Shown here: piece after piece, positions 8,876 to 32,157 of the stretch
Layout of the letters: the number at the start of each line of letters is the position of its first letter
How positions within the stretch are numbered: position 1 is the stretch's first letter
Origin: a virus
Reading direction: 5' to 3' (one strand)
Virus record (IMG/VR): IMGVR_UViG_3300042319_000910
Span: 1 to 32,178 of that record
DNA length: 32,178 nucleotides
Made by a program: the position numbers and the translations under genes
The notes under the pieces: model-generated
The model's input: the letters and a program-made list of their open reading frames with translations, nothing else
Databases searched by the model: none
What the model was told of the DNA's origin: nothing

Positions 8876-11224
8876 TTATTTTCTTTGTCCGTATGAAAAA
8901 TTGTTTCTACTACTCTTTTCAGATGCTAAAACAATACCACTTGTAACCTTTTGTCCATCTAAATAAACATTATTTGATTTATTTGAAAACTCTTGTCTTA
9001 ATGCTTTCATTTCATTTACTAAAGTATCAATTCCACTAAAAGCCCCAGCATTACCTGTATTATTTGGCGATAATGACATTTTTCCAATGTTAGATGCTGC
9101 ATTTAAATTTTCAATTATATTAGGCGCTGCCACTAAATCATCATTTGGAGATAGATTTAATAACCCACCTTCTTTTGTAGATATTTGAGTTCTACCATCA
9201 GCAGGTGACATTACATCACCAACACTTTTTGCTTTACCCATAGATGATAGTAATGCCGCAACAACTCCAGCCGCTAAAGCAACACCAACAAAAGGCATTG
9301 CCCCATATGCACTCCATACTTTAGCAATTGCTGCCATTTTAGCAGCAATAGCAACTTTCATAGTCATTAACCACATTGCGGTTAATCCTGCTATAATTGC
9401 CGGAAACACACCAGGTATAAAATTTAATACTTTAAATACAAATCCAAGTGATTCAGCTATCATAGTAACTAAAGGTGCTAACCCTTCCATCAATGGTAAA
9501 AGTGCAGTACCAAGAGATGCAACTATTCCTTTAAATGAGTTTTCCATTTGAGTAACCTTATCAGCGATTTCTTGCTGAGCGGCTAATTCTTTGGTTTTAT
9601 TCATCAATTGGTCTTGTGTTAGATTGGTTATATCCAACCCTTTATCTATTGCTTGTTGTGCTTTTATAGATTCATCATCGGTAAGGCCTGATAATAGTTT
9701 TTGGATTTGTAATTGCTTAGTAAGTTGTTCTACTGTCATACCTGCCGCATCTGCTAATACCTTTTTAGTAAACATATCCTGGTCAGCAAATCTACCACTT
9801 CTTTCAACCTGTTTTAATATTTCTTTCTGAGCATCTACGTTTTTACCAGCATATGCTAATGCTCTTGCTTGCGATAAATTAAATTGACCTCCAACAAATG
9901 TTGCAGCTACTAATTCTTTCTCAATTCCATTTTCAAAATCTAAAAGGTCTTCGGTTGTTTTTAATACATCTTTTAATGTAGTACCTAATCTTCTAGCTTC
10001 AATAGCTTGCTTAGCTATTAAATTAACATCACCTTTAAAATAGGTATAAGTACTTTCAGCTGATTCAGCTATATCCGCAAATACTTGCGATGGAGCTACG
10101 CCAGCTAAATTTGCCATTTGAGCTACTTGCTGTGAAACTCCTTGTGCAGTTTCCGCAGATAACCCAGCCATACTCTGCATTATCATACTTACTTTGGCTG
10201 CATCTTTTTGAGCAATTCCAAAGTTTTTATTTAATACAGTCATTGATGATACCAATGCTTCGGATAATCTAGCGTTATCAGCAAATTCTCCTTTTAGTGC
10301 ACTAATCGTATCATATACATCATCAGCCGCTATTCCTAATTGAGAAAAATTATTTCTAATCTTTTTAACTTGATTATCTAAATCTTTTGATTGAGATGCA
10401 GTTATTCCAGTTTCTTCTCTAAACTTTTTAGATGCTGCCGATAATTCTGTAAATGAATCTACAGCTGCTGCTAATAATAATCCTATCAATACAAGTGGTA
10501 ACATTCCCGACATCAATCCTTTACCTAAATCTTTGGCCAAATCAACACCATCTTGAAGAAAACCTGGAAGTTTTTCATATAATCTATTACCTTCTTCTTT
10601 TATTTGATTTAATCGTTCTTCTTGTTGAATTAAATTTTCATTTAATTGAAATAAATCTTTTAATTTTTTTTGTTCAGCAGGTCCTAAACTAGCAATACTT
10701 TCTTCAAATTTAAGTCTTCTATTAGCTGCATCATTTTGACCTAAAATTTCATCTTTTACTTTAGCTGCTTCTTCCGCTTGAGTTGTAATAGATGTATATA
10801 GGTTTGAATATAGTTCTAATTTTTTTTGATTAATTTTTAACTCATCATCGCTTAATCCAAATTGTTGTTCTTTTAAATCTAAAATATCTTTAGCAAGAGA
10901 AGCAAATGCAGAACCTCCTACTTTATTTGTAGTTATTAATTTTCTAGCATTAATGTTTAATTTTGTAAAAGAAGTTCCTAAAGAATCTTGTAAATCTTCA
11001 TATTCTTCAGCTAATGTATTTTGTTTCTCTAATGGTTCTGCTTGTTTTTGTAAAATCTTTAGCTTTTCCTTCTCTTTCTCAATTCTCTTTTCAAGTCTTT
11101 TACGTTCTTCCGCACCAACTATCGCAGCCTTTTTGTTTTGCTCCTCAATACGCTGATTAGTTTCCTCAATTTCTCTAAGAAGTTCTAACCTAAGCTCTTC
11201 TGCACTATCTGATAGTTTATCCAT
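8876..11224 (-). CDS. Tape measure protein, 782 aa
   Basis: The protein sets tail length and is packed inside the tube. Residues 5-75 are a strongly charged coiled coil. A hydrophobic helix lies at about 238-256 (MLPLVLIGLLLAAA). Residues 260-580 are helical with Ala/Gln/Leu. A second hydrophobic cluster spans about 590-665 (FIPGVFPAIIAGLTAMWLM and FVGVALAAGVVAALLSSMG). The C-terminus is Asn/Ser-rich. Coiled coil plus internal membrane-type helices, in a gene lying after the sheath, tube and chaperone-like genes, is the usual tape measure signature. At roughly 0.15 nm per residue it predicts a tail near 115 nm. Its ATG overlaps the previous stop as TAATG, indicating translational coupling. 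Confidence 0.9.
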   Translation of the reverse strand: MDKLSDSAEELRLELLREIEETNQRIEEQNKKAAIVGAEERKRLEKRIEKEKEKLKILQKQAEPLEKQNTLAEEYEDLQDSLGTSFTKLNINARKLITTNKVGGSAFASLAKDILDLKEQQFGLSDDELKINQKKLELYSNLYTSITTQAEEAAKVKDEILGQNDAANRRLKFEESIASLGPAEQKKLKDLFQLNENLIQQEERLNQIKEEGNRLYEKLPGFLQDGVDLAKDLGKGLMSGMLPLVLIGLLLAAAVDSFTELSAASKKFREETGITASQSKDLDNQVKKIRNNFSQLGIAADDVYDTISALKGEFADNARLSEALVSSMTVLNKNFGIAQKDAAKVSMIMQSMAGLSAETAQGVSQQVAQMANLAGVAPSQVFADIAESAESTYTYFKGDVNLIAKQAIEARRLGTTLKDVLKTTEDLLDFENGIEKELVAATFVGGQFNLSQARALAYAGKNVDAQKEILKQVERSGRFADQDMFTKKVLADAAGMTVEQLTKQLQIQKLLSGLTDDESIKAQQAIDKGLDITNLTQDQLMNKTKELAAQQEIADKVTQMENSFKGIVASLGTALLPLMEGLAPLVTMIAESLGFVFKVLNFIPGVFPAIIAGLTAMWLMTMKVAIAAKMAAIAKVWSAYGAMPFVGVALAAGVVAALLSSMGKAKSVGDVMSPADGRTQISTKEGGLLNLSPNDDLVAAPNIIENLNAASNIGKMSLSPNNTGNAGAFSGIDTLVNEMKALRQEFSNKSNNVYLDGQKVTSGIVLASEKSSRNNFSYGQRK

Positions 11225-11507: not shown

Positions 11508-11558
11508 ATAAAAGAAAAAAGTTAGGAATAAGAGTGGTTATCTCTTAATCCTAACTTT
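11508..11558 (-). terminator. Intrinsic terminator overlapping the end of the 67-aa gene
   Basis: The arms AAAGTTAGGATTAAGAG (11558-11542) and CTCTTATTCCTAACTTT (11534-11518) match over 17 positions with a single T-T mismatch and a 7-nt loop. They are followed by a T-rich run (TTTCTTTT). The stop codon of the 67-aa gene (11540-11538) lies in the loop, so the last six sense codons form the left arm. Confidence 0.82.
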
Positions 11559-11741
11559 AGATGCGTTGGAAGATTGTGCTTTTTTAGTATCTTCGTTTTC
11601 TTTTTTCTTCGATTCAACTAATTTATTATAATAAAATCTCCTAAGATGGGTTGGCATTTTGTACAATTCCATCATCGAAAAACCATTACTATACTCCACC
11701 ATTTCAAATATTTGAGTGTGGAGTAATAGACTATGATTCAT
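11538..11741 (-). CDS. 67-aa overlapping frame, putative T-type tail assembly chaperone segment
   Basis: The ATG at 11741 lies inside the end of the gp26-like gene, which stops at 11731, giving an 11-bp overlap in the +1 frame. The protein is 67 residues. A helical N-terminus (LLLHTQIFEMVEYSNGFS) leads to MPTHLRRFYYNKLVE at about 28-42, then a Lys/Glu/Arg-rich tail. A short MP-x-x-x-R-x-(F/W)-Y motif is common in the second frame of tail assembly chaperone pairs and in small proteins next to gp26-like genes. It may be made by coupled reinitiation, by frameshifting at the T7 run at 11751-11757, or both. Gene order just before the tape measure fits a chaperone role. Confidence 0.6.
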   Translation of the reverse strand: MNHSLLLHTQIFEMVEYSNGFSMMELYKMPTHLRRFYYNKLVESKKKENEDTKKAQSSNASKVRIKR

Positions 11742-12492
11742 CGCCAGGCCAAAAAAACCCTACGCCCATTGGAATAGGCGCCACCTCACTTTCTCCATCT
11801 TCATGTACATATGTAAATGTCATGTTCATATCTGGAGAGATTTTTTTAATATGTTCTCTGAATGCTCTACTATCTTTTGCTAAAAATGAGTTATTAATGA
11901 ATTTATTGATATGACCTAAATCTGAATTACCATCCACACTTTTAATCATATATCTTAATCTAGTTGTAATTTCATACGAACCATCTTTATTCATTTTCTC
12001 TAATGCTGTTATATCTTTATCAATTAACTTCTCATCACCATGTGTAAGTAATTTAAATACTAATGTATTACCAGTAGGTGTTGTGAATTGAAATTCATTT
12101 TGATTTCCAAAATTAGAATAATCAACATCCTTTGTTTTAATTTGAGCCAAATCTACTGTTGTTTCAATAGATTTTCCTGCTTTAGATGAATAAAATGAAA
12201 TATTATAGTTAGGACCATATCCTAATAGTCTTGTTGCTAATACGATTGCATTTTTATCACCTACTAAAATATCATCTATATTAACAGCATCAACAATAAT
12301 TGATTCAAATAACTTATCCAATACAATTCCTTTTTTAATTAGGTTTGTAGAAGAAAGTATATCTTCCTCTTTTGCTGTCATATATTTTATTGTAATTTGT
12401 CCAGAAGATAGAGGATGCTCTTTTGGATATAATTTACCTTTTGATGGTAAATCCAACACTTCTGTTGGGAAATCGAATTGTTTTTGATTCAT
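11731..12492 (-). CDS. gp26/gp51-like T4 baseplate family protein (PF12322 type), 253 aa
   Basis: Residues 13-23 read LDLPSKGKLYP, followed by GQITIKYMTAKEEDIL (31-46), LVGDKNAIVLATRLLGYGPNYNISFY (77-101) and a beta region. This is the pattern of the T4 baseplate/hub assembly family: LPS-x-G-x-xY, a (Y/R)-M-T-x-x-E-E helix, then G-D-x-x-x-x-L...YG-x-x-Y. T4 relatives help build the central hub. Here it sits upstream of the tape measure where tail chaperone G proteins usually lie, so it may act as a chaperone. It has its own promoter box and lies between two terminators. Near its 3' end GGG TTT TTT TGG offers a +1 slip that would replace the last 6 residues by the 67-aa frame (about 317 aa in all). 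Confidence 0.82.
   Translation of the reverse strand: MNQKQFDFPTEVLDLPSKGKLYPKEHPLSSGQITIKYMTAKEEDILSSTNLIKKGIVLDKLFESIIVDAVNIDDILVGDKNAIVLATRLLGYGPNYNISFYSSKAGKSIETTVDLAQIKTKDVDYSNFGNQNEFQFTTPTGNTLVFKLLTHGDEKLIDKDITALEKMNKDGSYEITTRLRYMIKSVDGNSDLGHINKFINNSFLAKDSRAFREHIKKISPDMNMTFTYVHEDGESEVAPIPMGVGFFWPGDES
11751..11760 (-). promoter_or_regulatory. Candidate +1 frameshift site (GGGTTTTTTT)
   Basis: In the zero frame the site reads GTA GGG TTT TTT TGG CCT. Phe-tRNA on the second TTT can move +1 and still pair with TTT, while the next zero-frame codon is TGG; after slipping, GGC is read and the frame continues into the 67-aa ORF with no stop. A -1 slip would meet TGA within five codons. No recoding structure was tested. 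Confidence 0.35.
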
Positions 12493-12603: not shown

Positions 12604-13104
12604 TTAATATTCAAGAATTGCGTAATCGTATGTTAATGTCAAATCGATTGTTGCTGGTTCATTTGTGTTAGAAAAGTCCAATTCACCAAAAGAAGCTTTA
12701 GTAATAAATGCTCCTTTTAAAGTCCATTGTTCAACCTTATCACCAACAGGACCTAACATATAAAAACTAATGTCCTTTTTATAGAATTCAGCGTATCCAT
12801 CTCTACCAGTAATTGATTCATGTGATAATCTCACCCACTCCATTACTAATTGAGCTGCTGAAGGAACTACTGGGTCATATAAAGTGATATTTAAGTCCTG
12901 CCACTCACCTTTACCCTTTAATTTTCTATAAACGTTGATATGGTCTATTTTTACAGTTTCAAAATTTATTTCTGGTCTGTTTGCTGTTTTAACCATATAT
13001 GCGGGAATACCCACACTTGTCATTTCCATATAGTAGCGGTTTTTCATCTTCGGTTCGAAGGTATCCGCTATCATTTGGGTATAATTTAATATATTATCTG
13101 CCAT
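12604..13104 (-). CDS. Tail tube protein (gp19-like), 166 aa
   Basis: This protein forms the inner tube of the contractile tail. Its 166 residues match the usual length of gp19-family tubes (about 160-170). Family features are an N-terminal FEPKMKNRYYMEM block, PAYMVKTANRPEINFE, the YRKLKGKGEWQDLNITLYDP hairpin, LVMEWVRLSHESITGRDGYA, and closing strands WTLKGAFITKASFGELDFS and EPATIDLTLTYDYA. It lies 53 nt downstream of the sheath, with a candidate promoter box 24 nt before the start and a strong terminator after it. That arrangement suits a protein needed in high copy. Confidence 0.93.
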   Translation of the reverse strand: MADNILNYTQMIADTFEPKMKNRYYMEMTSVGIPAYMVKTANRPEINFETVKIDHINVYRKLKGKGEWQDLNITLYDPVVPSAAQLVMEWVRLSHESITGRDGYAEFYKKDISFYMLGPVGDKVEQWTLKGAFITKASFGELDFSNTNEPATIDLTLTYDYAILEY

Positions 13105-16531: not shown

Positions 16532-19500
16532 TTATCCTTTAATATTAAATATTAAATTATTTAAAATTTCTTTTAATTCTTTAATTTCTTCTGATTGTTT
16601 TTTTACAATTTCATTTTGCTCCTTAAATGCTTCAATAAATAATCCTGCAAGATTACCATATGCAACCGCATATTCATCTAAATCTTTCACATATGATACA
16701 ACTTCCGGAACAATTTCATTTACTTCTTGTGCAATTACACCCAATTGTCTTTTATCAGCACCACCATCAGGAATCGTATCATTTTCATTATAAATTTTAG
16801 TATAGTAAATACCTCTTAATTGTAAAACTTTATCCAAAGCGTTATCAACTGTAACAATATCCTTTTTCTTTCTTATATCCGAATAAGCTACGATATTGCC
16901 TGTTGCGTAAACACCACCATTACAATATATTGCATACCCTCCGGCGGTTGAGGATGTACCCATTCCAGTACAATTATTTCCCAATGAATGATAAAACACC
17001 CATCTACCATATCCCTCTATATAACATCCACCATTACCACTTCCATCAAACATATAGTAAGGTGAGTTACCAGTACCAATACTTAAACCATACCACCCAT
17101 TTCTATTACCATCAATTATCCATGAACCATATGACCTGTTACTTGGGTAGAAGTGTGCACCATTTATTCCAGAATATATTCCATGATGTCCAGTAAGATT
17201 TTGCCATGTATGCCAAAATGAATAGTTAGATGAACCACTCAATTGAATTAGAATACCACTCATATCATAATCAGAATATAATCTAACTCCTTCATATGAA
17301 CCAGCGTTTGCTCCAAACTTAAGACCTGTATGATATGCAATTCTTAAATCCGGATAAGGATAACCCCAACCACCACCTTCTTGGAAGATAGAGTATGCGT
17401 TTGTACCTTGTCCAGAGTTACCACCAACTCCAGTGAAATCTAAACGAGCTATTCTACAATAATCATTGAATTCACCAGAACTCAATTGAGAATATCCAGT
17501 TGGGTTACAATAATATGATGTATTAACTCCTTTATAAAAGGCGTTAGCCATTACATTTTTATTACCACCACCAGGTCCAATTCTTACTTCACCACCATCA
17601 TAGTAGTTTAATTCCAATGGGTCACCACCTCTACCATTTACAGTATCAAAATATCCGTTTCTACCAATAACGCCATATGAACTATCACCTTGCCAATATA
17701 AATTATAATAATATACTGCGTTTAAAGATGATGTTCCATCAGGATCTAAATAATATCCACCATTGTTTGAATCTCTAAATGATGTTGCCCATAATGCTGA
17801 TGTACTTGAATTATTATCATACATTGCAATCTTATACCAACCACTAGGGCTATTCCAGCTATATCTCCACCATAAGTTTGCATTCACACCACCAATCATC
17901 TGCCATCCGTATGCGTTACTACCATTACTCCAGTGGAATGTTTGAATACCAACGTGATGTGATGTATCACCCGGTCTATTTTGTGCACCAGTAGAACCCC
18001 AGCTATCAATAAATCCAGAACCCCATCCTAACATTTCATTGAAAGTATAAGAACCCCATCCCATATTACCAGTCCAATAAACTTGGTCTCCTGTTATGTA
18101 AGGTCTCCAGTAATTATATCTACCGGTTATACCAGTTTTAGCTTGCGTAGTTTGATTCCATCCATTAATATTTGAATCTCTATCTCCAGCAGGATTTAAA
18201 TAGTATCCAGTACTTTCATTATCACGATAATAAGTTGCATCTACATATTGTCTAAACCAAGCTCTTGATGAAATTGCTGCGAATGTTGTACCATAGTTCA
18301 TTATCAACATACCATGGTCATTCAAAAATCCAGCTTGTCCTCCCGCGTTTGGATGTGACCAAGCTATACCATACATATTGTTGGTAGCTGAGCCATCATT
18401 TGATATTTTATATGCATCACCCATCGCATATACCATTTGATATCTAGTTGATGTATAAACCCCAACTATACCAGACCCATAGTTATTATCAAGATACAAA
18501 TAGTTTCCAGAATAAATGTTGTATCCGTTAAGCCTTCCATTACTATACCAGTTTGTTTCACCATGAAATCTAATGTTCTGTCCACTATAATAGTTTAAGT
18601 ACATTTGCTTACTAGCACTTGCCGAGTCCAAATGTAAATTACCATCCGTTGAAATTACTTGTGCTTGATAACTACCAAGTTTATTACTTGCAGCACCTAC
18701 ATATAGATAAGCTCCCCAAGATGCATTTGGTCCATATAGTGTACCAGAGTTATCTCCATTTTGTACAGCCTCTCTAACATATGAATAGTTTCCAGATACA
18801 GCAAATGTTTTAATTGTTGAACCATTACTACTTTGAATTCTAAATCCAGTACCAGAGTATGCTCTAATTTCTTCCCAATCATCATCTGCGTTCCATAAGA
18901 AGTGATTTGTATCTCCGTTAGTTCTTAGATATAATCTTTGGTCATTCAAACCATAAGAACCAGTCATATTAATACCACCACTAATAGGAATTGCATAAGA
19001 ACCATAGTTTCCAGCATGCAACATTGCTCTCCATCCACTTTGCCAGTTTGTAGTACCATACCATCCGTATCTATGAAGAATTTCACCCTGATAGAAGTAA
19101 TATTGGTCATGTTGATGTCCACCTAATCCATAGTATTCAATTAATGTACCATATGAAGATGGTGCTCCACTTTGAGTGTAACTATCCCACATTCTAAATG
19201 ACATTGATTGAGTACCACTACCATTACCATGAGCTCCCCAACTATAATCCCATTCTCTATAAGGGAATGTTACTTGGTTTACTACTATTCTATTACTATT
19301 CCATAAATAAGTTGTATCATCTGAAACATAATATAATGGTGAACGGAAATTACCATTTACCGAATCTGGTGTTATCCATACAGTTTGGTCAGTCATTCTA
19401 ATTGTTGTAAAATTAGAGTTACCTTCTGTACCAGTATTCAAATCTATTCTTCTTGATGAACCTCTATTTGAGATAATCATTTTACCAGTACCATCATGAT

Positions 19501-22500
19501 TTAATGAGAAACCTTGAGCTGTATAAGCTGCATAAGTTCCAAATGATTGAGATGAGCCTCCCAAACCAATATATGCTCTATGTGTACCATTTTCAGTAAA
19601 GTCTGCTAAACCATATGTAGTTGAATCATTTAAATTTAATCTAACATTACCAGTAGTAAGATTATTAGTTAAAGTAGTTGTGCCAGCTGTAGTTAATGAA
19701 TTTATATTAGATGTACCTGCCGGGTCTGAATAGTATCCAGTATTATCTCTATCATAGAATCTATATGCGTATAAATCTCCAGCTAAAGTAAGAGTACCAC
19801 CATTAGATAATGCCATTATTTGAGTTGCCCCAGCATTATACCAATCATATGCACCATTACCAAAGTTTCTTAAACGAGATGTACCAGCATCTTGTATAAA
19901 TCCAGTATAATTAGAAGCATCTCCAATATTTAAACCAGTACTCCAACCAACACCAGCTGCACCACCTGCCCAAATACTTACTCTACCAGAAGAAATTGCA
20001 GCTGTGCCACTTAATACAGTTTGTCCACCATATACATAGAAAGGAACTGATGGTGAACCAGGAGAACCAACGGATACACCTGCTGTAAAGTTATTATATC
20101 CATTAAGGTATAACATGTTAGTATTCCAACCGCTATATCTCCCTATTGCTTGCCATCCAGTTAATTGTACAGTCGTATCACCACCACCTGCTACGTTTAA
20201 TGTAGGTCCAGCAAAATATCCATTACCACTTTCATTTACTGAAAATAATTCGTTTGATGCTTTTCTTGCATTGTTTCCAACTATAAATTTACTATCGGTT
20301 TGGTTATTATTAGAATCTATACTTACACGTACATCACCAGCACCAGCCATATAAAGTACATTACCAGATGAATTATCTTGTACAAGAATCACATCATATG
20401 TATTATCTCTATACAAACCAGCGGAAGTATCACTTAAATAAAATGCCCCTCCATTTCCACCAGAGTTTGCAATTACCTGATTGAATACAACGTTATCGGT
20501 TGTACGAACATTTTGGTTCATATTATAAGCATAAGGGTCACTTACACTATCCAATAGATATTTCCAACCAGTCCAAGAGTTACCACTATTAGTACTATAA
20601 TCACCAAAACGAACTCCTAAACGAGTACCACCATAAACAGAACTATATGGTGTATATAATTGTAACGAACCGCCACCACCAGAATAAGTTCTCATCATCA
20701 TTACAGACCCATAATTTGGAAATCCTTCTGTAGATGAAACGAATGCATTTGTTATGCCTTGTCCAAATGCTTGTGGTAAAGATGATGCACTCCAACCATA
20801 ATTAGCTAATGCATTTAATAGGTTAGCCGATGTTGCTACACCACTTAAGTTTGATGTTACGTTTACAAATGTTGGTGAATCGGTTGTTCTAAGATTTTGA
20901 TTCATTAAGTGAACTTCCGTAGCTCCCTGTCCAGTATCAACCGTAGCAAACGTTACTGCATCAGTTGTACGAACATTTTGATTCATTGCGTACAATTCAT
21001 TTGCACCTTGTCCAGTATTAACGGTTGCAAATGTTACACCATCAGTAGTTCTTACGTTTTGGTCCATTAAATAAACTTCGGTTGCTCCTTGTCCTGTGTT
21101 TAATGTACCACTAAGAACTACGTTACCACTTACGTTTACGTTATCATCAAATGACCATCTATCATTACCCTCATCCCAAATAAATTGTTTTGTTGCTGCA
21201 TTACCTCTCTTAACTTCTATACCAGCGTTTTCGGTTGGTGTGGTTGATGCTCCAATATCTGCGTTTAATGTAATGATATTATCACCTACATTTAAAGTTG
21301 TTGTATTAATATATGTTGTTGTACCACTTACAGTAAGGTCACCACTAATTGTAGCGTTACCAGTTACTGCTAATGTAGTTCCATCAAAAGTTAAATTTGA
21401 TTCAACAGTTCCGTTTGGCGCAGTTCCATTTAAAGTTATTACACCATTATTTGTTCCACCAGTTAATGATAATAATCCAGATGAACCAGATGTACCACGT
21501 GTTCCTGATGTGCCAGAAGTTCCTGATGTGCCAGAAGTTCCTGATGTACCGCTTGTGCCAGAAGTTCCCGAACTTCCACTTACACCAGATGTTCCTGATG
21601 TGCCACTACTTCCACTTGTTCCCGATGTGCCACTTGTACCAGATGTTCCTGATGTGCCACTTGTACCAGATGTTCCTGATGTACCTCTTGTGCCAGATGT
21701 TCCTGATGTGCCAGACGTTCCCGATGTTCCAGAAGTTCCGGATGAGCCACTAATACCAGATGTTCCCGAAGTTCCGCTTGTGCCAGAAGTTCCCGATGAA
21801 CCACTAACTCCAGAAGTTCCTGATGTACCAGATGTACCATTTGAACCTTGTGCCCCAGACGTACCACTTGTGCCAGACGTTCCTGATGTACCACTTGAAC
21901 CTTGTGCCCCCGATGTACCACTTGTGCCAGAAGTTCCTGATGTACCTCTACTTCCGCTTGTGCCAGAAGTTCCTGATGTACCAGACGTTCCTGATGTACC
22001 ATTTGAGCCGGATGAACCTTGTATTCCAGAAGTTCCTGATGTTCCAGAAGTTCCTGATGTTCCACTACTTCCACTTGTGCCAGACGTTCCTGATGTTCCC
22101 GATGAACCACCTGTGCCACTTGCTCCACTAGTACCACTACTTCCAGAAGTTCCTGATGTACCCCTACTACCTGATGTGCCGCTTGTACCGCTTGTGCCGC
22201 TTGTGCCACTTGTACCACTTGTACCACCAGCGCCACCAGCTCCACTTATACCAGATGTTCCAGAAGTTCCTGATGTACCAGAAGTTCCTGATGTGCCGCT
22301 TGTGCCACCACTTCCAGATGTACCACCACTTCCTGCAGTACCAGAACCTCCACCTGCTCCAGTTAGACCAGATGTTCCCGATGTACCACTTGTGCCAGAT
22401 GTACCGCTTGTGCCAGAAGTACCTCCACTTCCACCAGTTCCAGTTGAACCAGTTGGTCCTATTAATCCCGATGTACCAGACGTTCCCGATGAGCCACTAC

Positions 22501-23545
22501 TACCACTACTACCACTCACTCCACTACTTCCACTAGTACCAGATGACCCAGATGTACCAGATGACCCAGAAGTTCCCGATGAACCAGATGAACCATTTTG
22601 TCCTGATGTTCCTGATGTGCCAGAAGTTCCTGATGTGCCAGATGAACCGCTTGTACCAGAAGTTCCTGATGACCCAGAAGTTCCACGACTTCCTGATGTG
22701 CCAGAAGTTCCTGATGTGCCAGAAGTTCCTGATGTGCCAGATGTTCCTGATGTACCAGACGTTCCCGATGTACCAGAAGTTCCTGATGTGCCCCTTGTGC
22801 CGGATGTTCCTGATGTACCACTTGTGCCAGATGTTCCTGATGTGCCGGATGTTCCTGATGTGCCAGAAGTTCCTGATGTGCCAGAAGTTCCTGATGTGCC
22901 GCTTGTACCAGATGTACCAGATGATGCTGCAGATGTTTTTATACCTATTTTACCACTTACAGTATTATAAACTAAAACTTCTTGAGTTGTTAAATCTTGT
23001 TGTAGTGAACCAGTTCCAAATGTTAATGAACCAGTTATACCAACACTACCAGTAAATTCTTGCTTATCATTTTGTGCATCACCAAATTTGTTACTTCCAC
23101 TTGCGTAGATTATTGATGATGAAATATATGTTGCGAATAATTCAGTTGTATTTATTTTTCCAGTTACATTTAAGTTACCAGCAATATTTGTATTTGTGTT
23201 TACTTGTAATCCTAAATTTGGAGATATAATTGCTGTTGCAGAGCCTGATTTTAATCTGTCTAAATCCCCAATTGCACCAGCATTAATATTAAATAATCCA
23301 CCTCCATCACCTCTAAATAATGATGCTGTTATTGAACCACTAATTTGTGTGTTTCCTCTTATTTGCAAAGTAGAACCACCACCAGTTCCTATAATATTTG
23401 TCTGAACTGCGGATGCTGTAAAATTTCCTACAACACTTACAGATTCCGATGAAGCATTTATAATAGAGCTACCACTTACAAAAAGAGATATACTATTTAC
23501 ACTATTTAAATTTAAGCCATTTGGGTCTTTACCATTAAACTGCAT
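16532..23545 (-). CDS. Giant tail fiber, 2337 aa, with Gly-X-Y repeats and S74 C-terminal chaperone
   Basis: Residues 1-205 form a beta-rich N-terminal adhesion-type region with FRGDGGGLFNI and LKSGSATAIISPNLGL modules. About 207-690 is a Gly-Thr-Ser triplet stalk. Residues 690-760 hold SNLTFDGTTLAVTGN, a module also present in the other fiber. About 810-910 has tandem 27-residue repeats around GQGATEVYLMDQNVRTTD. Further on lie four Y-x-D/N-P modules such as TGYYLDPDGTSSLN. The end is a Peptidase_S74 intramolecular chaperone: Ser2222 in AYSDIRKKKD, with Lys at +5, LGVIAQEV, and a coiled coil (NEIVKKQSEEIKELKEIL). S74 domains trimerise, fold the preceding fiber and cut before the Ser, releasing about 116 residues. 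It is probably a receptor-binding fiber. Confidence 0.9.
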   Translation of the reverse strand: MQFNGKDPNGLNLNSVNSISLFVSGSSIINASSESVSVVGNFTASAVQTNIIGTGGGSTLQIRGNTQISGSITASLFRGDGGGLFNINAGAIGDLDRLKSGSATAIISPNLGLQVNTNTNIAGNLNVTGKINTTELFATYISSSIIYASGSNKFGDAQNDKQEFTGSVGITGSLTFGTGSLQQDLTTQEVLVYNTVSGKIGIKTSAASSGTSGTSGTSGTSGTSGTSGTSGTSGTSGTSGTSGTSGTSGTRGTSGTSGTSGTSGTSGTSGTSGTSGTSGTSGTSGSRGTSGSSGTSGTSGSSGTSGTSGTSGTSGQNGSSGSSGTSGSSGTSGSSGTSGSSGVSGSSGSSGSSGTSGTSGLIGPTGSTGTGGSGGTSGTSGTSGTSGTSGTSGLTGAGGGSGTAGSGGTSGSGGTSGTSGTSGTSGTSGTSGISGAGGAGGTSGTSGTSGTSGTSGTSGSRGTSGTSGSSGTSGASGTGGSSGTSGTSGTSGSSGTSGTSGTSGTSGIQGSSGSNGTSGTSGTSGTSGTSGSRGTSGTSGTSGTSGAQGSSGTSGTSGTSGTSGAQGSNGTSGTSGTSGVSGSSGTSGTSGTSGTSGISGSSGTSGTSGTSGTSGTSGTRGTSGTSGTSGTSGTSGTSGTSGTSGSSGTSGTSGVSGSSGTSGTSGTSGTSGTSGTSGTSGTRGTSGSSGLLSLTGGTNNGVITLNGTAPNGTVESNLTFDGTTLAVTGNATISGDLTVSGTTTYINTTTLNVGDNIITLNADIGASTTPTENAGIEVKRGNAATKQFIWDEGNDRWSFDDNVNVSGNVVLSGTLNTGQGATEVYLMDQNVRTTDGVTFATVNTGQGANELYAMNQNVRTTDAVTFATVDTGQGATEVHLMNQNLRTTDSPTFVNVTSNLSGVATSANLLNALANYGWSASSLPQAFGQGITNAFVSSTEGFPNYGSVMMMRTYSGGGGSLQLYTPYSSVYGGTRLGVRFGDYSTNSGNSWTGWKYLLDSVSDPYAYNMNQNVRTTDNVVFNQVIANSGGNGGAFYLSDTSAGLYRDNTYDVILVQDNSSGNVLYMAGAGDVRVSIDSNNNQTDSKFIVGNNARKASNELFSVNESGNGYFAGPTLNVAGGGDTTVQLTGWQAIGRYSGWNTNMLYLNGYNNFTAGVSVGSPGSPSVPFYVYGGQTVLSGTAAISSGRVSIWAGGAAGVGWSTGLNIGDASNYTGFIQDAGTSRLRNFGNGAYDWYNAGATQIMALSNGGTLTLAGDLYAYRFYDRDNTGYYSDPAGTSNINSLTTAGTTTLTNNLTTGNVRLNLNDSTTYGLADFTENGTHRAYIGLGGSSQSFGTYAAYTAQGFSLNHDGTGKMIISNRGSSRRIDLNTGTEGNSNFTTIRMTDQTVWITPDSVNGNFRSPLYYVSDDTTYLWNSNRIVVNQVTFPYREWDYSWGAHGNGSGTQSMSFRMWDSYTQSGAPSSYGTLIEYYGLGGHQHDQYYFYQGEILHRYGWYGTTNWQSGWRAMLHAGNYGSYAIPISGGINMTGSYGLNDQRLYLRTNGDTNHFLWNADDDWEEIRAYSGTGFRIQSSNGSTIKTFAVSGNYSYVREAVQNGDNSGTLYGPNASWGAYLYVGAASNKLGSYQAQVISTDGNLHLDSASASKQMYLNYYSGQNIRFHGETNWYSNGRLNGYNIYSGNYLYLDNNYGSGIVGVYTSTRYQMVYAMGDAYKISNDGSATNNMYGIAWSHPNAGGQAGFLNDHGMLIMNYGTTFAAISSRAWFRQYVDATYYRDNESTGYYLNPAGDRDSNINGWNQTTQAKTGITGRYNYWRPYITGDQVYWTGNMGWGSYTFNEMLGWGSGFIDSWGSTGAQNRPGDTSHHVGIQTFHWSNGSNAYGWQMIGGVNANLWWRYSWNSPSGWYKIAMYDNNSSTSALWATSFRDSNNGGYYLDPDGTSSLNAVYYYNLYWQGDSSYGVIGRNGYFDTVNGRGGDPLELNYYDGGEVRIGPGGGNKNVMANAFYKGVNTSYYCNPTGYSQLSSGEFNDYCRIARLDFTGVGGNSGQGTNAYSIFQEGGGWGYPYPDLRIAYHTGLKFGANAGSYEGVRLYSDYDMSGILIQLSGSSNYSFWHTWQNLTGHHGIYSGINGAHFYPSNRSYGSWIIDGNRNGWYGLSIGTGNSPYYMFDGSGNGGCYIEGYGRWVFYHSLGNNCTGMGTSSTAGGYAIYCNGGVYATGNIVAYSDIRKKKDIVTVDNALDKVLQLRGIYYTKIYNENDTIPDGGADKRQLGVIAQEVNEIVPEVVSYVKDLDEYAVAYGNLAGLFIEAFKEQNEIVKKQSEEIKELKEILNNLIFNIKG
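16535..16882 (-). other. Peptidase S74 / intramolecular chaperone domain
   Basis: The domain comprises the last 116 residues of the 2337-aa fiber. The cleavage Ser2222 lies in SDIRKKKDI, matching the family's S-D-x-R-x-K-x-x-I block, and QLGVIAQEVNEIVPEVV is the second conserved block. The C-terminal heptads form a trimeric coiled coil. Cleavage before the Ser is expected from the family. Confidence 0.88.
20870..21110 (-). repeat. Tandem 27-residue (81-nt) repeats in the S74 fiber
   Basis: Three consecutive copies share TGQGA-(T/N)-E-(V/L)-x-x-M-(D/N)-QN-(V/L)-RTTD. A fourth, partial copy (MNQNVRTTDNVVFNQV) lies about 400 bp further downstream in the gene, near 20490-20540. At DNA level the copies differ at many third positions. 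Confidence 0.75.
21475..22925 (-). repeat. Gly-X-Y (Gly-Thr-Ser) triplet repeat region of the S74 fiber
   Basis: Nine-base protein triplets coding Gly-Thr-Ser run for about 485 residues, varied by GSS, GAQ, GVS, GIQ, GSR and GTR. Glycine stays at every third position through most of the run. Synonymous codons vary between units. The long open frame on the opposite strand is a by-product of this composition. Confidence 0.92.
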
Positions 23546-25596: not shown

Positions 25597-28500
25597 TTAA
25601 GCCATATTTTTACCAACCACAAATCCATAGAATGTAGTTCCTCCATCATAAGTATAGAAAACTAAAACATCTATACCAGAAGTTGTAAGGATTGGAGCAC
25701 TTCCACCAGCCCAATCAACATTCACAGGCCATGTAATTACAAATGCTTGTGCATTTGCAGTTATCAATGTAAATCCAAATGCTTTACCTGCAGGTGCGTT
25801 ACTAAATGTTATAGTTGCGTTACCATTAAATGTTCTTTTGAAGTTATTAGCGGTTGACATATCTATTGTAGCAGACCCACCAGTTCCTAAATCATTATAA
25901 ATTTCTCTATATGATGTTGCTTCCAAATATGTACTAGCATCCATTCCACCTGTTAGTGTGATGTTACCAGTTTGGTTAGTATCACCAATTAATGTTAATA
26001 TACTTCCATCAAATGTAAAGTTGCTTTCCGCAGTTGCTCCAACAGGTGCATTGTTATATGTTAATATACCATCATTTGTTGTTCCTACTATACTAAGACC
26101 AGATCCCGATGTACCACCACTACCAGAAGTACCAGATGAAAAACCTGGAGCGTTTGTTCCAGATGAACCACTACTTCCCGTATTTCCTGATGTTCCAGAA
26201 GTTACACCATAGAAAGATGTACCAGACGAACCACTTGAACCAGCTGCTCCAGTAGAACCAATAGCACCAGACGTACCCGATGTTCCAGATGAACCAAAGA
26301 ATGTACCATTTACACCAGATGAACCAGATGTTCCAGATGACCCAGATGTTCCAGAAGAACCATATCCAGATGTTCCTGATGTGCCACTACTTCCTGAAGT
26401 TCCAGATGAACCAAACATTGTACCATTCACACCGGATGTTCCCGTTGAACCAGAAGTTCCTGAAGACCCGGCTGTACCTGTTGAGCCGCTTGTACCAGAA
26501 GTTCCTGATGTTCCAGAAGTTCCCGATGAACCAAACATTGTACCATTAACTCCCGATGTACCAGATGTTCCATTAGAACCACTTATACCAGATGTTCCAT
26601 TAGAACCACTTATACCAGACGTTCCTGATGAGCCAGACGTTCCTGATGAACCAAACATAGTACCATTAACTCCCGATGTACCGGCCGAACCAGTTGTACC
26701 GCTTGTGCCAGAAGTTCCACCAGTACCCGTTGTGCCAGAAGTTCCCGATGTACCAGAAGTTCCTGATGTTCCGGAAGAACCAAACATTGTACCATTTACA
26801 CCAGACGTTCCTGTTGAACCAGAAGAGCCTGCAGTTCCCGATGTACCATTTGTTGCATCTAATCCAGACGTTCCAGATGACCCAGATGTCCCACTACTTC
26901 CAAAGAATGTACCATCTAATCCAGAAGTTCCTGATGTGCCAGATGAACCAGACGAACCAGATGTACCAGCTCCAGATGTTCCCGATGAACCAGATGTGCC
27001 ACTACTTCCAAAGAATGTTCCATCTAAACCGCTTGTTCCAGATGAACCCGATGACCCAGACGTTCCAGATGTACCAGCTCCAGATGTTCCACTACTTCCA
27101 GCTGAACCATTTGTACCACTACTTCCAAAGAATGTACCATCTAATCCAGAAGTTCCTGATGAGCCAGATGAACCAGACGTTCCACTTGAACCAGCACCAT
27201 CAGTACCACTTGTACCAGTTATACCACTAGTCCCACTACTTCCAAAGAATGTACCATCTAATCCAGAAGTTCCTGATGTGCCAGATGAACCAGACGTTCC
27301 TGAAGACCCAGATGAACCAGACGAACCTCCACTACCATTTGTACCACTAGTCCCACTACTTCCAAAGAATGTACCATCTAATCCAGATGTGCCAGACGTT
27401 CCGGATGAACCTCCACTGCCGCTTGAACCACCACTTCCACTTGAACCGCTTGTACCACTACTTCCAGATGTTCCTGATGAACCTCCACTGCCACTACTAC
27501 CACTACTTCCAAAATAAGTACCATCTAATCCAGATGTTCCACTTGTACCAGATGTACCGCTTGAGCCACTTGTGCCAGATGTACCGCTTGTGCCAGATGT
27601 TCCACTACTTCCAAAATAAGTACCATCTAATCCAGATGTTCCAGATGACCCAGATGTTCCTGATGTGCCAAATGTTCCCGATGTACCATCCGTACCAGAT
27701 GTGCCAGATGAACCGGATGTTCCGCTAGTGCCAGAAGTTCCATTTGTACCTGTACTACCACTCGTACCACTACTTCCTGATGTACCAGATGTACCATCAG
27801 AACCAGATGTGCCCGATGTACCAGAAGTTCCCGATGTACCAGCTGATCCCGATGAACCTCTTTCACCAGAAGTTCCCGATGTGCCAGATGTACCATCAGT
27901 ACCACTTATTCCCGATGTGCCAGATGTTCCATCCGTACCACTCGTACCACTACTTCCAGAAGTGCCGCTTGTGCCAGATGTACCATCAGTACCACTTATT
28001 CCGCTTGTGCCAGAAGAACCAGAAGTTCCTGACGTACCAGATGAGCCATCAACCCCAGACGTTCCTGATGACCCAGATGTACCAGAAGTTCCCGATGAAC
28101 CCGTTGAACCAGAAGTTCCTGAAGACCCAGACGAACCAGAAGTTCCTGAAGACCCAGATGTTCCGGATGACCCAGATGAACCTGTTGTACCACTTGAGCC
28201 GCTTGTACCAGAAGTTCCCGATGAACCAGATGTACCATCAGAACCAGACGTTCCTGAAGACCCAGAAGTTCCCGATGACCCAGACGAACCAGCTGAGCCA
28301 GTTGTTCCCGATGTACCAGATGATCCCGATGAACCTCCACTTCCCGATGTGCCAGATGTTCCCGATGTACCACTTGAACCAGCTTCTCCTTTAGAACCAG
28401 ACGTACCAGACGTTCCCGATGTACCAGCAGTTCCTGATGTGCCAGAAGTTCCAGATGAACCGTTTGAACCAGAAGTACCCGATGTGCCAGATGTACCACC

Positions 28501-31500
28501 CGTACCACCTGTACCAGTTGTTCCCGCTGTTCCACCACTGCCACTAGTACCACTTGAGCCACCAGTACCAGTTGAACCAGAAGTTCCACTACTACCGCTT
28601 GTACCACTACTTCCGCTAGAACCACTACTACCAGACGTTCCTGAAGACCCAGAAGTTCCTGAAGACCCAGAAGTTCCGGATGAGCCAGATGTACCACTAC
28701 TTCCAGAAGTTCCCGATGAACCGGTTGAACCAGATGTTCCTGAAGACCCAGATGAACCAGAAGTTCCTGATGAACCAGAAGACCCAGAAGTTCCCGATGT
28801 GCCACTTGTTCCAGAAGTTCCTGATGTGCCAGATGTTCCAGATGAACCACTACTACCAGAAGACCCAGATGTTCCCGAAGACCCAGATGAACCAGAAGTT
28901 CCCGATGAGCCAGAAGTTCCCGAAGACCCAGATGAACCAGACGTTCCTGAAGACCCAGAAGTTCCTGAAGACCCAGAAGTTCCGGATGAGCCAGATGTAC
29001 CACTACTTCCAGATGAACCCGTAGAACCAGAAGAACCAGAAGTTCCTGATGAACCAGCTGAACCGGAAGAACCACTACTACCAGATGAACCTGACGTTCC
29101 TGATGAGCCGGCAGTTCCAGATGAACCTGCTGTGCCAGATGAACCGGCTGAACCATTTGTACCAGATGAACCACCAGTACCTGTTGTACCTGATGAACCT
29201 ACTGCTGCTGCTATATTTCTTCTTTCTAATTTTTTAGTTAAACTATTCCATACAACAACTTCTTCGGATGAGCCAGTTGGTAATGAGTTTATTAACAAAT
29301 TACTATTTGCTATAATACTACCACTAACACCCAAGCTACCACTAATTGTAAGTGATGCGTTTATTGTTTGGTCTGTGTTAATTTGTAAGAATGATGATGT
29401 ATCAGATGATGGAGTATTTAATGCAAATAATGCATAAGATGCGGTGAATGCTAACGATGCAGTTCCAACTAACATTGAAGAAGTTTGTGAACTAAGTAAA
29501 TCACCAAAACCAGCACCACCACCACCTAATATTCTTACTAATACTCCATCTGAACCAGAAGATATTACATCAACACCAGAACCAGTAAAATGAATTTTTC
29601 CTACTTGTGCTTTTACTAATGAACTTGTTTGATATATAAATAGTTCAGTACCACCACCACCGGCTCCTGCATTTAATGCATATGATGCGGTTAATGCGTA
29701 AGAAGAACTTACTGCACTAAACACAGCCATTGAAGATGTTTGTGAGTTTCTTACTAAGTTTTGAATATCATTTAATGCTGATAATGATGCTGAATCAAAT
29801 CCAGTAACATTTCTTGCTGTTTCAGCAACGAATGCATATGATGATGAAAGTACCGTACCAATAACTCTACCACCTTCTATTGTACCACTAATCAAAGAAC
29901 CACCACTACCAATTACAGCATGTCCACTTGTCAATCCACTAAATACAATTTGAATTGTATCATCATTTATTGATTTTATTGTACCGGGTAGGATTTGGTC
30001 TTCTGAACCTGTAGCGTAAACCTGTACCATTGGATATCTAATTCCTAAATTGTGTACAATTGTTAAACTACTTACATTGTTAAAAGATACCGTTTCAGTT
30101 AATGAAGTTTCAGGTTGAGGAATATAATGTCCTCTAGTTGGGTCATATCTTAAAATATCATAATCAATACTTGCAGTTGGTCCATTTCCTTCATATGCGT
30201 ATGTACCTCTTAAACCTCCACTTACTATTGGAGAATATATTTGAGTACTTCCGGTTATTGTATATGCTCTTAAATTATCACCAACATAAAGATTACCCCA
30301 AATACTTGCAGATGTATTAACTACAAATCCGTTATCAGGGGAAATTGATGCTGTAAATGAACCACTTTTTAATATAAATGTTTCAAATGATAAGTTAGCA
30401 ATATTAATATTATATAACCCACTACCATCTCCTCTAAAGGTTGAACCACTTCCAACCAATGATACATCACCACCAGTTACAAACAATCCACCACTAACTA
30501 ATAAAGATGATGATATGTTTACTTTTGTATTTACTACTAAACCCAAATTAGGAGAAATTACAGCTTCAACAGACCCAGATTTAATTCTATCTAATTGTAA
30601 ATCTTCCAATGCATTTGCAGGGATATTAAATAATCCACCACCATCACCTATATAAAGAGATGCTGTAATTGGTACATTTACATTCAATTCATCAGGACTT
30701 ACTATTGCTCTAGCAGAACCAGATTGAATTCTGTCTAATTGAAGGTCTTGTAATGCTGATGCGGGGATATTAAATAGTCCACCACCATCTCCATCATAAC
30801 GAGATGCCGATAGAGTACCACTTACTATTGCTGCACCACTCACTATTAAACTCAAAGATGAAGATGGTACAACTCTATCAATTGTCGTATAAGTGTTAAT
30901 TACGAGTCCCGTATTAGGTGCTATGGATGCTGTTACAGAACCAGATGCTATTCTTGGTGCAGCTGTTGCAGCTACATTTGTTAAATTAGAACCATCTCCT
31001 ATAAAAGTAAATGCTTCTATACTACCACTTACTTTTATAGAACCAGTAAATTGAGAACCTATTTGAGAGCCAGTTGCAGGTGTTTCTACTCTAAATCCAA
31101 AGTTAGGAGATACAGAAGCTGTGACACTTCCACTTGAGATTTTTGGAGATGCCGCCGCAACAACATTTGTAATTTGAGAACCATCTCCAATGAAATAATT
31201 TGCAGATACACCATCTAATACAAATATAGAGCCACTAACATCCAGAGAACCAGTAAATTGAGAACCTATTTGAGAACCGGTCTTTGCCGTTGTTACTATA
31301 AATTGTTCTCCACTTGTAACAGATGCAGTTGCAGAACCACTTGCTATCAATGGAGATGCTGCCGCTTGTACGTTTGTTATAAATCTACCATCACCAAAAA
31401 AGAATCCATCATTTGATAATCTTACACTTCCGCTTACTGAAATACTTCCACTAAATTGTGAACCACTTTCTTGCGATTGTACTTTAAATCCATAATCAGG

Positions 31501-32157
31501 TGCTACCGAAGCGGTTACAGATCCTGATTTAATTTCCGTTGATACTAATGCATCTTCAGTTAATGCTGAACGAGGAATACGTCTTAAATATTGTCCTTCT
31601 GCATAAATAAATGAAGATGAGCCAATAAATAATCCACCACTCATGTCATTCAAATATACACTACCACTTATATCCAAAGAACCAGTAAATTGAGAACCTA
31701 TTCGTGTACTAAAGAAATCAGTATCTATTGATGATGTAAACGGAGTTATAACTTTAAATCCATAATCAGGTGCCACAGAAGCGGTTACTGAACCTGATTT
31801 AATTTCTGCCGATATTAATGCATCTTCCGTTAATGCTGCTCTAGGAATTTGTCTTAAATAAGTTCCTAATGAATATATAAAAGATGATGAATCAATTCTA
31901 ATACTTCCACTAAAATCAGAACCACTATCAAATGATGATACTCTAAATCCAAAAGTTGGAGATACAGATGCAGTTACACTACCACTTGCTATTCTAAATA
32001 CTTCTTGTGATAATGCGGAAATTGGTATATCAAATAATCCTTTACCAGAACCAGAATACATTGAAGCGGTAATATTTCCTTCAACTTTTGTATTACCAAT
32101 TAATTTTATTTCAGCAGGTATGTATAATGCATCTACTACATTGATTGTACCCGCCAT
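25597..32157 (-). CDS. Giant tail fiber, 2186 aa, with Gly-X-Y repeats and beta tip
   Basis: Residues 1-700 contain about nine related modules built on SGSVTASVAPDYGFKV, followed by GSQFTGSLDISGS and a F-(I/R)-GDG-(S/G)-x-(L/I)-x-N-(V/I) motif, typical of beta-helical phage fiber shafts. About 985-2022 is a Gly-Thr-Ser/Gly-Ser-Ser triplet stalk interrupted by 12 hinge motifs of type LDGTFFGSSG or VNGTMFGSSG. A SNFTFDGSILTLIGD module follows, then a compact tip (about 2100-2186) with FNGNATITFSNAPAG, FVITWPVNVDWAGG and DVLVFYTYDGGTTFYGFVVG, a pattern seen at the ends of other phage fibers. The start has no Shine-Dalgarno. There is no S74 domain. It is likely a long receptor-probing fiber. Confidence 0.88.
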   Translation of the reverse strand: MAGTINVVDALYIPAEIKLIGNTKVEGNITASMYSGSGKGLFDIPISALSQEVFRIASGSVTASVSPTFGFRVSSFDSGSDFSGSIRIDSSSFIYSLGTYLRQIPRAALTEDALISAEIKSGSVTASVAPDYGFKVITPFTSSIDTDFFSTRIGSQFTGSLDISGSVYLNDMSGGLFIGSSSFIYAEGQYLRRIPRSALTEDALVSTEIKSGSVTASVAPDYGFKVQSQESGSQFSGSISVSGSVRLSNDGFFFGDGRFITNVQAAASPLIASGSATASVTSGEQFIVTTAKTGSQIGSQFTGSLDVSGSIFVLDGVSANYFIGDGSQITNVVAAASPKISSGSVTASVSPNFGFRVETPATGSQIGSQFTGSIKVSGSIEAFTFIGDGSNLTNVAATAAPRIASGSVTASIAPNTGLVINTYTTIDRVVPSSSLSLIVSGAAIVSGTLSASRYDGDGGGLFNIPASALQDLQLDRIQSGSARAIVSPDELNVNVPITASLYIGDGGGLFNIPANALEDLQLDRIKSGSVEAVISPNLGLVVNTKVNISSSLLVSGGLFVTGGDVSLVGSGSTFRGDGSGLYNINIANLSFETFILKSGSFTASISPDNGFVVNTSASIWGNLYVGDNLRAYTITGSTQIYSPIVSGGLRGTYAYEGNGPTASIDYDILRYDPTRGHYIPQPETSLTETVSFNNVSSLTIVHNLGIRYPMVQVYATGSEDQILPGTIKSINDDTIQIVFSGLTSGHAVIGSGGSLISGTIEGGRVIGTVLSSSYAFVAETARNVTGFDSASLSALNDIQNLVRNSQTSSMAVFSAVSSSYALTASYALNAGAGGGGTELFIYQTSSLVKAQVGKIHFTGSGVDVISSGSDGVLVRILGGGGAGFGDLLSSQTSSMLVGTASLAFTASYALFALNTPSSDTSSFLQINTDQTINASLTISGSLGVSGSIIANSNLLINSLPTGSSEEVVVWNSLTKKLERRNIAAAVGSSGTTGTGGSSGTNGSAGSSGTAGSSGTAGSSGTSGSSGSSGSSGSAGSSGTSGSSGSTGSSGSSGTSGSSGTSGSSGTSGSSGTSGSSGSSGTSGSSGTSGSSGSSGTSGSSGSSGSSGTSGTSGTSGTSGTSGTSGSSGSSGTSGSSGSSGTSGSTGSSGTSGSSGTSGSSGTSGSSGTSGSSGTSGSSGSSGSSGTSGSSGTSGSTGTGGSSGTSGSGGTAGTTGTGGTGGTSGTSGTSGSNGSSGTSGTSGTAGTSGTSGTSGSKGEAGSSGTSGTSGTSGSGGSSGSSGTSGTTGSAGSSGSSGTSGSSGTSGSDGTSGSSGTSGTSGSSGTTGSSGSSGTSGSSGTSGSSGSSGTSGSTGSSGTSGTSGSSGTSGVDGSSGTSGTSGSSGTSGISGTDGTSGTSGTSGSSGTSGTDGTSGTSGISGTDGTSGTSGTSGERGSSGSAGTSGTSGTSGTSGSDGTSGTSGSSGTSGSTGTNGTSGTSGTSGSSGTSGTDGTSGTFGTSGTSGSSGTSGLDGTYFGSSGTSGTSGTSGTSGSSGTSGTSGTSGLDGTYFGSSGSSGSGGSSGTSGSSGTSGSSGSGGSSGSGGSSGTSGTSGLDGTFFGSSGTSGTNGSGGSSGSSGSSGTSGSSGTSGTSGLDGTFFGSSGTSGITGTSGTDGAGSSGTSGSSGSSGTSGLDGTFFGSSGTNGSAGSSGTSGAGTSGTSGSSGSSGTSGLDGTFFGSSGTSGSSGTSGAGTSGSSGSSGTSGTSGLDGTFFGSSGTSGSSGTSGLDATNGTSGTAGSSGSTGTSGVNGTMFGSSGTSGTSGTSGTSGTTGTGGTSGTSGTTGSAGTSGVNGTMFGSSGTSGSSGTSGISGSNGTSGISGSNGTSGTSGVNGTMFGSSGTSGTSGTSGTSGSTGTAGSSGTSGSTGTSGVNGTMFGSSGTSGSSGTSGTSGYGSSGTSGSSGTSGSSGVNGTFFGSSGTSGTSGAIGSTGAAGSSGSSGTSFYGVTSGTSGNTGSSGSSGTNAPGFSSGTSGSGGTSGSGLSIVGTTNDGILTYNNAPVGATAESNFTFDGSILTLIGDTNQTGNITLTGGMDASTYLEATSYREIYNDLGTGGSATIDMSTANNFKRTFNGNATITFSNAPAGKAFGFTLITANAQAFVITWPVNVDWAGGSAPILTTSGIDVLVFYTYDGGTTFYGFVVGKNMA
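26095..29210 (-). repeat. Gly-X-Y triplet repeat region of the 2186-aa fiber
   Basis: About 1040 residues of Gly-Thr-Ser, Gly-Ser-Ser and related triplets (GTD, GTN, GSG, GIS, GER), coded by variable synonymous codons. Within it, 26285-27625 shows a higher-order period of roughly 105-145 nt marked by the hinge motif. Confidence 0.92.
26285..27625 (-). repeat. Higher-order repeat with 12 hinge motifs
   Basis: Two TYF, five TFF (after LDG), four TMF and one TFF (after VNG) versions of (L/V)-(D/N)-G-T-(F/M/Y)-F-G-S-S-G recur. Four adjacent copies are spaced almost exactly 120 nt apart (near 26292, 26412, 26532 and 26652); the others are 105-145 nt apart. Confidence 0.8.

Follow-up and report, generated by a model that had tools for sequence, protein, structure and literature searches.

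A probable programmed +1 frameshift in the gp26-type gene of a virus and its relatives

A gp26-type gene in the viral DNA analysed here very probably carries a programmed +1 ribosomal frameshift that gives a 317-aa long form in addition to the 253-aa protein read in frame 0, as judged from the sequence of the gene and of its relatives. With slightly less confidence, and by analogy with known systems, the long and short products can be assigned a role as tail assembly chaperones, the long form presumably being the minor one. The window (the whole stretch of DNA analysed, 32,178 nt, positions 1-32,178 of the IMG/VR record IMGVR_UViG_3300042319_000910) contains the following features at and around the junction.

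8876..11224, minus strand: probable tape measure protein of 782 aa, with a relative so annotated in Flavobacterium phage immuto
11538..11759, minus strand: +1-frame extension, 73 codons and a stop (stop at 11540-11538), C-terminal part of the putative long form (TAC-NC)
11538-11741, minus strand: 67-aa ORF, inside the +1-frame extension
11538..12492, minus strand: putative fused long form, 317 aa, read with a +1 shift
11731..11733, minus strand: frame-0 stop TAG of the gp26-type gene, six sense codons after the second TTT
11731..12492, minus strand: gp26-type protein, 253 aa, putative short form of the tail assembly chaperone (TAC-N), with matches to PF12322 T4_baseplate and phrog_150
11739..11741, minus strand: ATG of the 67-aa ORF, probably not a start (unconserved, 3/156)
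11749..11760, minus strand: candidate shift site GGG_TTT_TTT_TGG (GGG at 11760-11758, T7 run at 11757-11751)
11760..11762, minus strand: TAG that shuts the +1 frame immediately before the shift site
12604..13104, minus strand: tail tube protein (PF06841 / phrog_4542), directly upstream of the gp26-type gene

The junction in the window and its neighbourhood

On the minus strand the gp26-type gene ends with GTA GGG TTT TTT TGG CCT GGC GAT GAA TCA TAG. The initial annotation had proposed that a Phe-tRNA could slip +1 within GGG TTT TTT TGG, with TGG as the sixth codon before the stop, and that the shifted frame is open through the 67-aa ORF for about 317 aa; the sequence is as claimed, and the fused translation comes to 317 aa and contains VGFFGLAMNH across the junction. 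There is little room for the shift: a stop shuts the +1 frame immediately before the site, and a ribosome slipping -1 there would meet a stop within a few codons. The opening of the -1 frame in the window comes just 7 nt ahead of the last base of the stop, and the 21 residues it encodes have no likeness to the extension. T runs of seven or more occur only twice on the coding strand of the 32-kb window, and the shift site is one of the two; the codon in the A site there is UGG, not a stop.

We infer the slippage itself, its frequency, the UUU that slips and the chaperone role as follows. Most ribosomes would reach the TAG and release the 253-aa short form, and a minority would slip one nucleotide forward with tRNA-Phe in the P site on a UUU within GGG_UUU_UUU_UGG; the tRNA would re-pair with the overlapping UUU, and translation would continue for about 70 residues to complete the 317-aa long form. 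If the system works like lambda gpG/gpGT, the tape measure protein, whose gene lies downstream, would be coated by numerous short copies, and the tail tube protein, whose gene lies upstream, would be brought in by the helical extension of a few long ones.

The 253-aa protein matches PF12322 (T4_baseplate) with 29.8 bits (cut-off 24.5), and phrog_150 is matched over 12-150 by the unfused protein (E 7e-9) and over 12-281 of 282 by the fused one (E 6.7e-10). The 67-aa ORF alone gave only matches below the cut-offs or at chance level in Pfam and PHROG. Both gp26 and gp51 of T4 belong to PF12322 and phrog_150, and along phrog_150 gp51 reaches to 280 and gp26 to 235. A gp26-type first partner had been taken as a departure from the logic of the G/GT chaperone pairs, a view that was not borne out, because T4 gp26 and gp51 are members of the same family and gp51 extends past the end of gp26. 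The gene order is tube, gp26, extension, tape measure, which places the gp26-type gene and its extension between the tube and tape measure genes as in G/GT pairs and confirms what had been claimed of their position upstream of the tape measure; an ORF at the place of the tail sheath also lies upstream of the gp26-type gene. The 782-aa ORF has no Pfam or PHROG family match; it is related to the annotated tape measure protein of immuto (6e-20) and, in Microcystis phage Mel-JY01, to the ORF in the corresponding position (1e-21).

Elsewhere in the window, two very long proteins are encoded on the minus strand (16532-23545 and 25597-32157), the genes of which contain large tandem arrays of 9-bp-based units (about 21476-22923 and 26215-29199); the translation of the protein at 16532-23545 shows Gly-Thr-Ser repeats. 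Long open frames on the opposite strand (21096-22970 and 27665-29437) overlie the arrays and are probably by-products of them.

Frame, overlap and shift site among relatives

Frame-0 proteins were used to scan viral contigs, phage records and species genomes for relatives. Two of these scans were capped at 80 relatives each, the best of at least 592 in one and of at least 600 in the other, and the set leans to near relatives. A total of 228 loci were examined, six of which have no frame-0 stop within the available sequence and were left out (L022, L070, L140, L253, L259 and L277), and the remaining 222 gave 187 unique 120-nt junctions. The extension lies in the +1 frame in 182 of these 187 junctions (including the two scans cut at their best 80 of at least 592 and 600 relatives), among loci whose gp26 identity to the window protein falls to about 25%. 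At the 182 junctions the two frames overlap by 23-125 nt (median 47). Relatives in which a gap separates the two frames had been named as the finding that would speak against a shift; none was found among the +1 relatives fetched, the overlap being at least 23 nt in 182/182. The five exceptions are L028 (LR756511) and L032 (Atu_ph07), in which the extension is in the -1 frame with a start codon overlapping the stop (TAATG and ATGA, respectively), and L279-L281, which are of the cyanophage type with -1 extensions. Two loci, L282 and L284, are in contigs binned as Saprospiraceae and Winogradskyella MAGs; this is perhaps a hint at Bacteroidota hosts, or else phage contamination of the bins.

Shift sites were picked in the first 158 unique junctions by a pattern of TTY followed by YTH, which leaves out TTG and CTG. 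The sites found were TTT TTT TGG (101), TTT TTT TAC (28), TTT CTT TGG (17) and TTT CTT TAC (3), with two cases of TTT TTT TTC and single cases for the rest; the stop follows the second shift codon four codons on in 83/158 junctions and six codons on in 59/158. Conservation of the T7 run had been suggested as a check, and it stood in part: T is present at 87-100% at each of the seven positions (102 non-redundant junctions), but the run is broken in some loci that are otherwise intact, e.g., to TTT CTT T in 20/158 junctions in which the +1 frame is kept, and there a cognate slip is usually still available. Codon choice at the site differs from that in the rest of the same genes. Phe is encoded by TTT in 155/158 cases at shift codon 1 vs 1140/1520 (75%) elsewhere, and in 135/137 at shift codon 2 (both TTC belonging to -1-frame cases); Leu at shift codon 2 is CTT in 20/21 cases, within a pattern that leaves out TTG and CTG, vs 693/3774 elsewhere.

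The branch of phage SP-15 (L248-L274 and L026) carries a second type of site, with runs of TTC TTT CGT and TTT TTT CGT and the +1 frame kept. Within the last 36 nt of the gene TTT_CGT was found in 13/23 unique loci of this branch and TTT_CGN in 16/23, and CGT is uncommon upstream in the same genes (25/252 Arg codons); L261 has a TTT_CGG at a greater distance than the other loci, 51-54 nt ahead of the last base of the stop. Over all +1 loci, an in-frame UUU followed by U or C is present inside the overlap in 178/182, so a single rule, by which tRNA-Phe in the P site moves +1 from UUU onto UUU or UUC, is possible and would fit all of these. The other four of the 182 (L266, L269, L271 and L275) keep the +1 extension with no in-frame UUU then U or C and carry TTT AAT CCC or TTC AAT CCC, in which CCC_A might serve as the slip site.

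No general stimulator was found near the site. A downstream RNA hairpin in the window (11640-11745, minus strand) folds better than shuffled sequences (z -3.37); 15 relatives gave no consensus structure for it, and in 100 loci the downstream folding had a mean z of -0.72 to -0.98 vs -0.49 in a control region. A Shine-Dalgarno-like AGG or GGA within 15 nt upstream is present in only 54/100 loci and so is not general.

The extension as a protein, and alternative explanations

Past the frame-0 stop the extension is open for a median of 79 codons vs 12 in the other frame (98 non-redundant loci), an openness that shuffled downstream DNA reaches with a mean chance of 0.002. Its codons past the stop have a median dN/dS of 0.55, with values below 1 in 98.7% of 597 non-independent pairs chosen for pS of 0.02-0.6 and pN <0.5. 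These statistics indicate that the +1 extension is evolving as a protein. An AlphaFold2 model of the fused window protein, computed with 68 further rows, has a mean pLDDT of 91.1 and predicts helices at 253-266, 273-277 and 281-308 of the extension. Foldseek returned nothing at E <= 0.001 when the fused model was searched against the PDB, and its best matches among viral models include SP-15 and other gp26-type proteins. VIA-align ranked 3klu (yqbn) first (Z 5.1, 79 aligned, rmsd 3.5; weak and below the trusted range) and put 2ob9, the tail assembly chaperone of HK97, in third place (Z 4.0, 78 aligned, rmsd 3.6; likewise below the trusted range); the fold likeness to 3klu and 2ob9 is suggestive only.

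The 67-aa ORF might instead be a separate small gene that is translated from its own ATG (11741-11739) by re-initiation after gp26. Such an ATG is present in the window just before the gp26 stop, L028 and Atu_ph07 have start-stop overlaps at the junction (TAATG and ATGA, though in the -1 frame), and annotators list short ORFs there. However, the ATG is found in only 3/156 unique junctions, near relatives having Thr, Lys, Arg or Pro at its place, and in the stretch that starts where the +1 ORF opens and reaches 30 nt beyond the stop, 56/182 junctions contain no ATG, GTG or TTG (135/182 contain no ATG). The remaining 126/182 have some possible start, so that the start-codon test alone leaves re-initiation open in those; conservation of the +1 frame extends across the overlap, and a separate gene would have no use for the T run. 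We regard a separate gene as very unlikely. Database entries split the shifted extension into small hypothetical proteins (L023:4854-4964, L027:4809-4928, L032:3888-4010 and L024:4755-4991).

If the two frames are read as one protein, the fusion might also arise by normal reading of mixed mRNAs made by slippage of RNA polymerase on the T7 run, or by a -2 shift, as in phage Mu, into the same frame. Both explanations draw on the run itself: a homopolymer of seven T is present in the window and most near relatives, the +1 and -2 frames are identical, and T7 permits cognate -2 re-pairing. Both are disfavoured because of the relatives with broken runs (TTT CTT T in 20/158 junctions, TTC/TTT TTT CGT in the SP-15 branch), which keep the +1 frame; at TTT CTT TGG, AAC TTT CTA TTC and TTC TTT CGT a -2 step is mismatched, whereas a +1 step gives UUU to UUC/UUU re-pairing. 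Transcriptional slippage thus has little to recommend it as the source of the fusion, and a -2 shift would be more surprising still. A further possibility accepts the frameshift as real and gives the long form a task other than tail-tube chaperoning, e.g., in the assembly of the hub proper. Part of a review on T4 does term gp26 and gp51 hub assembly chaperones, with gp51 absent from the final particle (PMC3004832), but the gene order and the logic of short and long forms match those of lambda G/GT in the section on that system in another review (PMC5009743), and a hub role seems to us improbable. Translational +1 slippage that yields the long form of a tail assembly chaperone is thus the reading we follow below.

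The -1 relatives, T4 and the direction of the slip

Among 14 named records, a second segment of phrog_150 (starting at 206-227) follows directly after gp26 in another frame in P-SSM2, HTVC008M and phiM9. Extensions in the -1 frame with U_UUU_UUC, U_UUU_UUU or U_UUU_UUG are present in P-SSM2, syn9, KVP40, HTVC008M, RaK2, phiM9 and phiW-14, and, from the reading of its junction, Atu_ph07 also has a -1-frame extension. Salmonella phage Vi01 (L240) has a -1 extension after gp26 with no canonical slippery heptamer (GAA ATT TTC ATT TAA), T4 and Campylobacter phage CPt10 have two separate genes, and phage G showed a marginal phrog_150 match only and no clear gp26 gene. A scan for P-SSM2-like genes (best 80 of at least 592 relatives) gave 79 unique junctions of the cyanophage type, the genes of this type being L236-L239 and L285-L364; among these best 80, T_TTT_TTC is present in 79/79, the -1 frame runs for 55 codons or more wherever the sequence includes its end, and a stop is reached in the +1 frame after a median of 4 codons. 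The -1 version thus uses the same gene, the same place (FF/FL before the stop) and a related extension in cyanophages, KVP40, HTVC008M, RaK2, phiM9 and phiW-14, and differs from the window in that the site is U_UUU_UUC (also with UUU and UUG endings) and the extension is in the -1 frame.

A profile of the +1 extensions matched that of the -1 extensions (E 5.8e-7, score 37.2, probability 86), and ten column-shuffled controls scored 4.5 or less. The full-length -1 profile matched T4 gp51 with a probability of 98.2 over 241 columns. Set directly against T4 gp51 (BLASTP and profile), neither the window protein nor its family profile gave a significant match, and the +1 family profile gave none with the long form of CPt10 either; the link to gp51 therefore runs through the -1 family. 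By these comparisons the +1 extension is related to the -1 extension and thence to the C-terminus of T4 gp51. In a tree of 69 gp26 domains (built with a quick method), all 45 +1 rows and L028 fall on one side of a branch with an SH-aLRT of 96, and the three states (-1, +1 and two genes) need four changes; the rows of T4 gp51 and CPt10 are on long branches and their placement is unsure.

Taken as one joint reading, to which we lean with some reserve, the direction of the slip would have changed within the family, with -1 in the cyanophage type, +1 in a large lineage and two genes in T4. The +1 lineage would comprise Flavobacterium-type, Microcystis, Bacillus, Listeria and Streptococcus phages and would shift at the same Phe-Phe place as the -1 members, one branch using UUU_UUU_UGG and another the influenza-like UUU_CGU; it would be an undescribed class that works with neither a conserved RNA structure nor a Shine-Dalgarno element.

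The window gene resembles lambda gpG/gpGT in that a single gene, immediately upstream of the one for the tape measure protein, would yield a short and a long form by a frameshift close to its 3' end; lambda, as set out in the review, shifts -1 (PMC5009743), whereas the window gene would shift +1 and belongs to PF12322, and the two are likened by organisation, not by sequence. With T4 gp26/gp51 the window shares the family (PF12322, phrog_150), gp51 having a C-terminal extension that is absent from gp26, but T4 has two separate genes where the window phage would have one gene and a +1 shift. A canonical -1 frameshift (X_XXY_YYZ) is not matched by the window, whose extension is not in the -1 frame, nor is the -2 shift of Mu, with no cognate -2 re-pairing at the TTT CTT, TTT CTA and TTC TTT CGT relatives. 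Influenza PA-X is described as made by a +1 shift at UUU_CGU by re-pairing of tRNA-Phe from UUU to UUC before a rare A-site codon (PMC3498833); the identical site is present in 13/23 loci of the SP-15 branch and the window has UUU_UGG, the genes being unrelated and the sites convergent at most. For Halorubrum virus HSTV-2 a passage of the 2016 review gives a +1 shift as very likely at a G/T-type tail junction (PMC5009743); both would be +1 shifts at a tail chaperone junction, HSTV-2 is archaeal, and the two are again likened by organisation.

G-T frameshifting is, according to the same review, conserved widely among long-tailed phages, with T4 as the exception (PMC5009743). Two later papers cite Vladimirov et al. 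2022: in the PRFect paper, some T4-like phages are said to possess both a short copy and a longer, fused one (PMC10885494), and in the Adele paper, poly-T sequences in the TAC-N genes of T4-like phages are named as known signals for a -1 shift (PMC12846349). The short/long chaperone pair of Vladimirov et al., as it appears in these citing papers, is presumably gp26 and gp51. From the citing papers, the assignment as chaperones, the form with two genes and shifting by -1 were already known; no report of the +1 lineage, its two types of site or the change of direction was found in the open-access literature searched.

A frameshifted extension would explain why annotators find only short hypothetical proteins at the junction. 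The gp51 of cyanophages was reported, in a passage of an earlier study, at about 20% of the usual length (PMC3037559), and this "short gp51" is probably caused by a gp51-like extension in the -1 frame. The family of T4 gp26 appears to hold three answers to the need for a short and a long form, i.e., a -1 shift, a +1 shift and two genes, and with three solutions in one family it lends itself to the question of how programmed frameshifting is lost or turned from one direction to the other.
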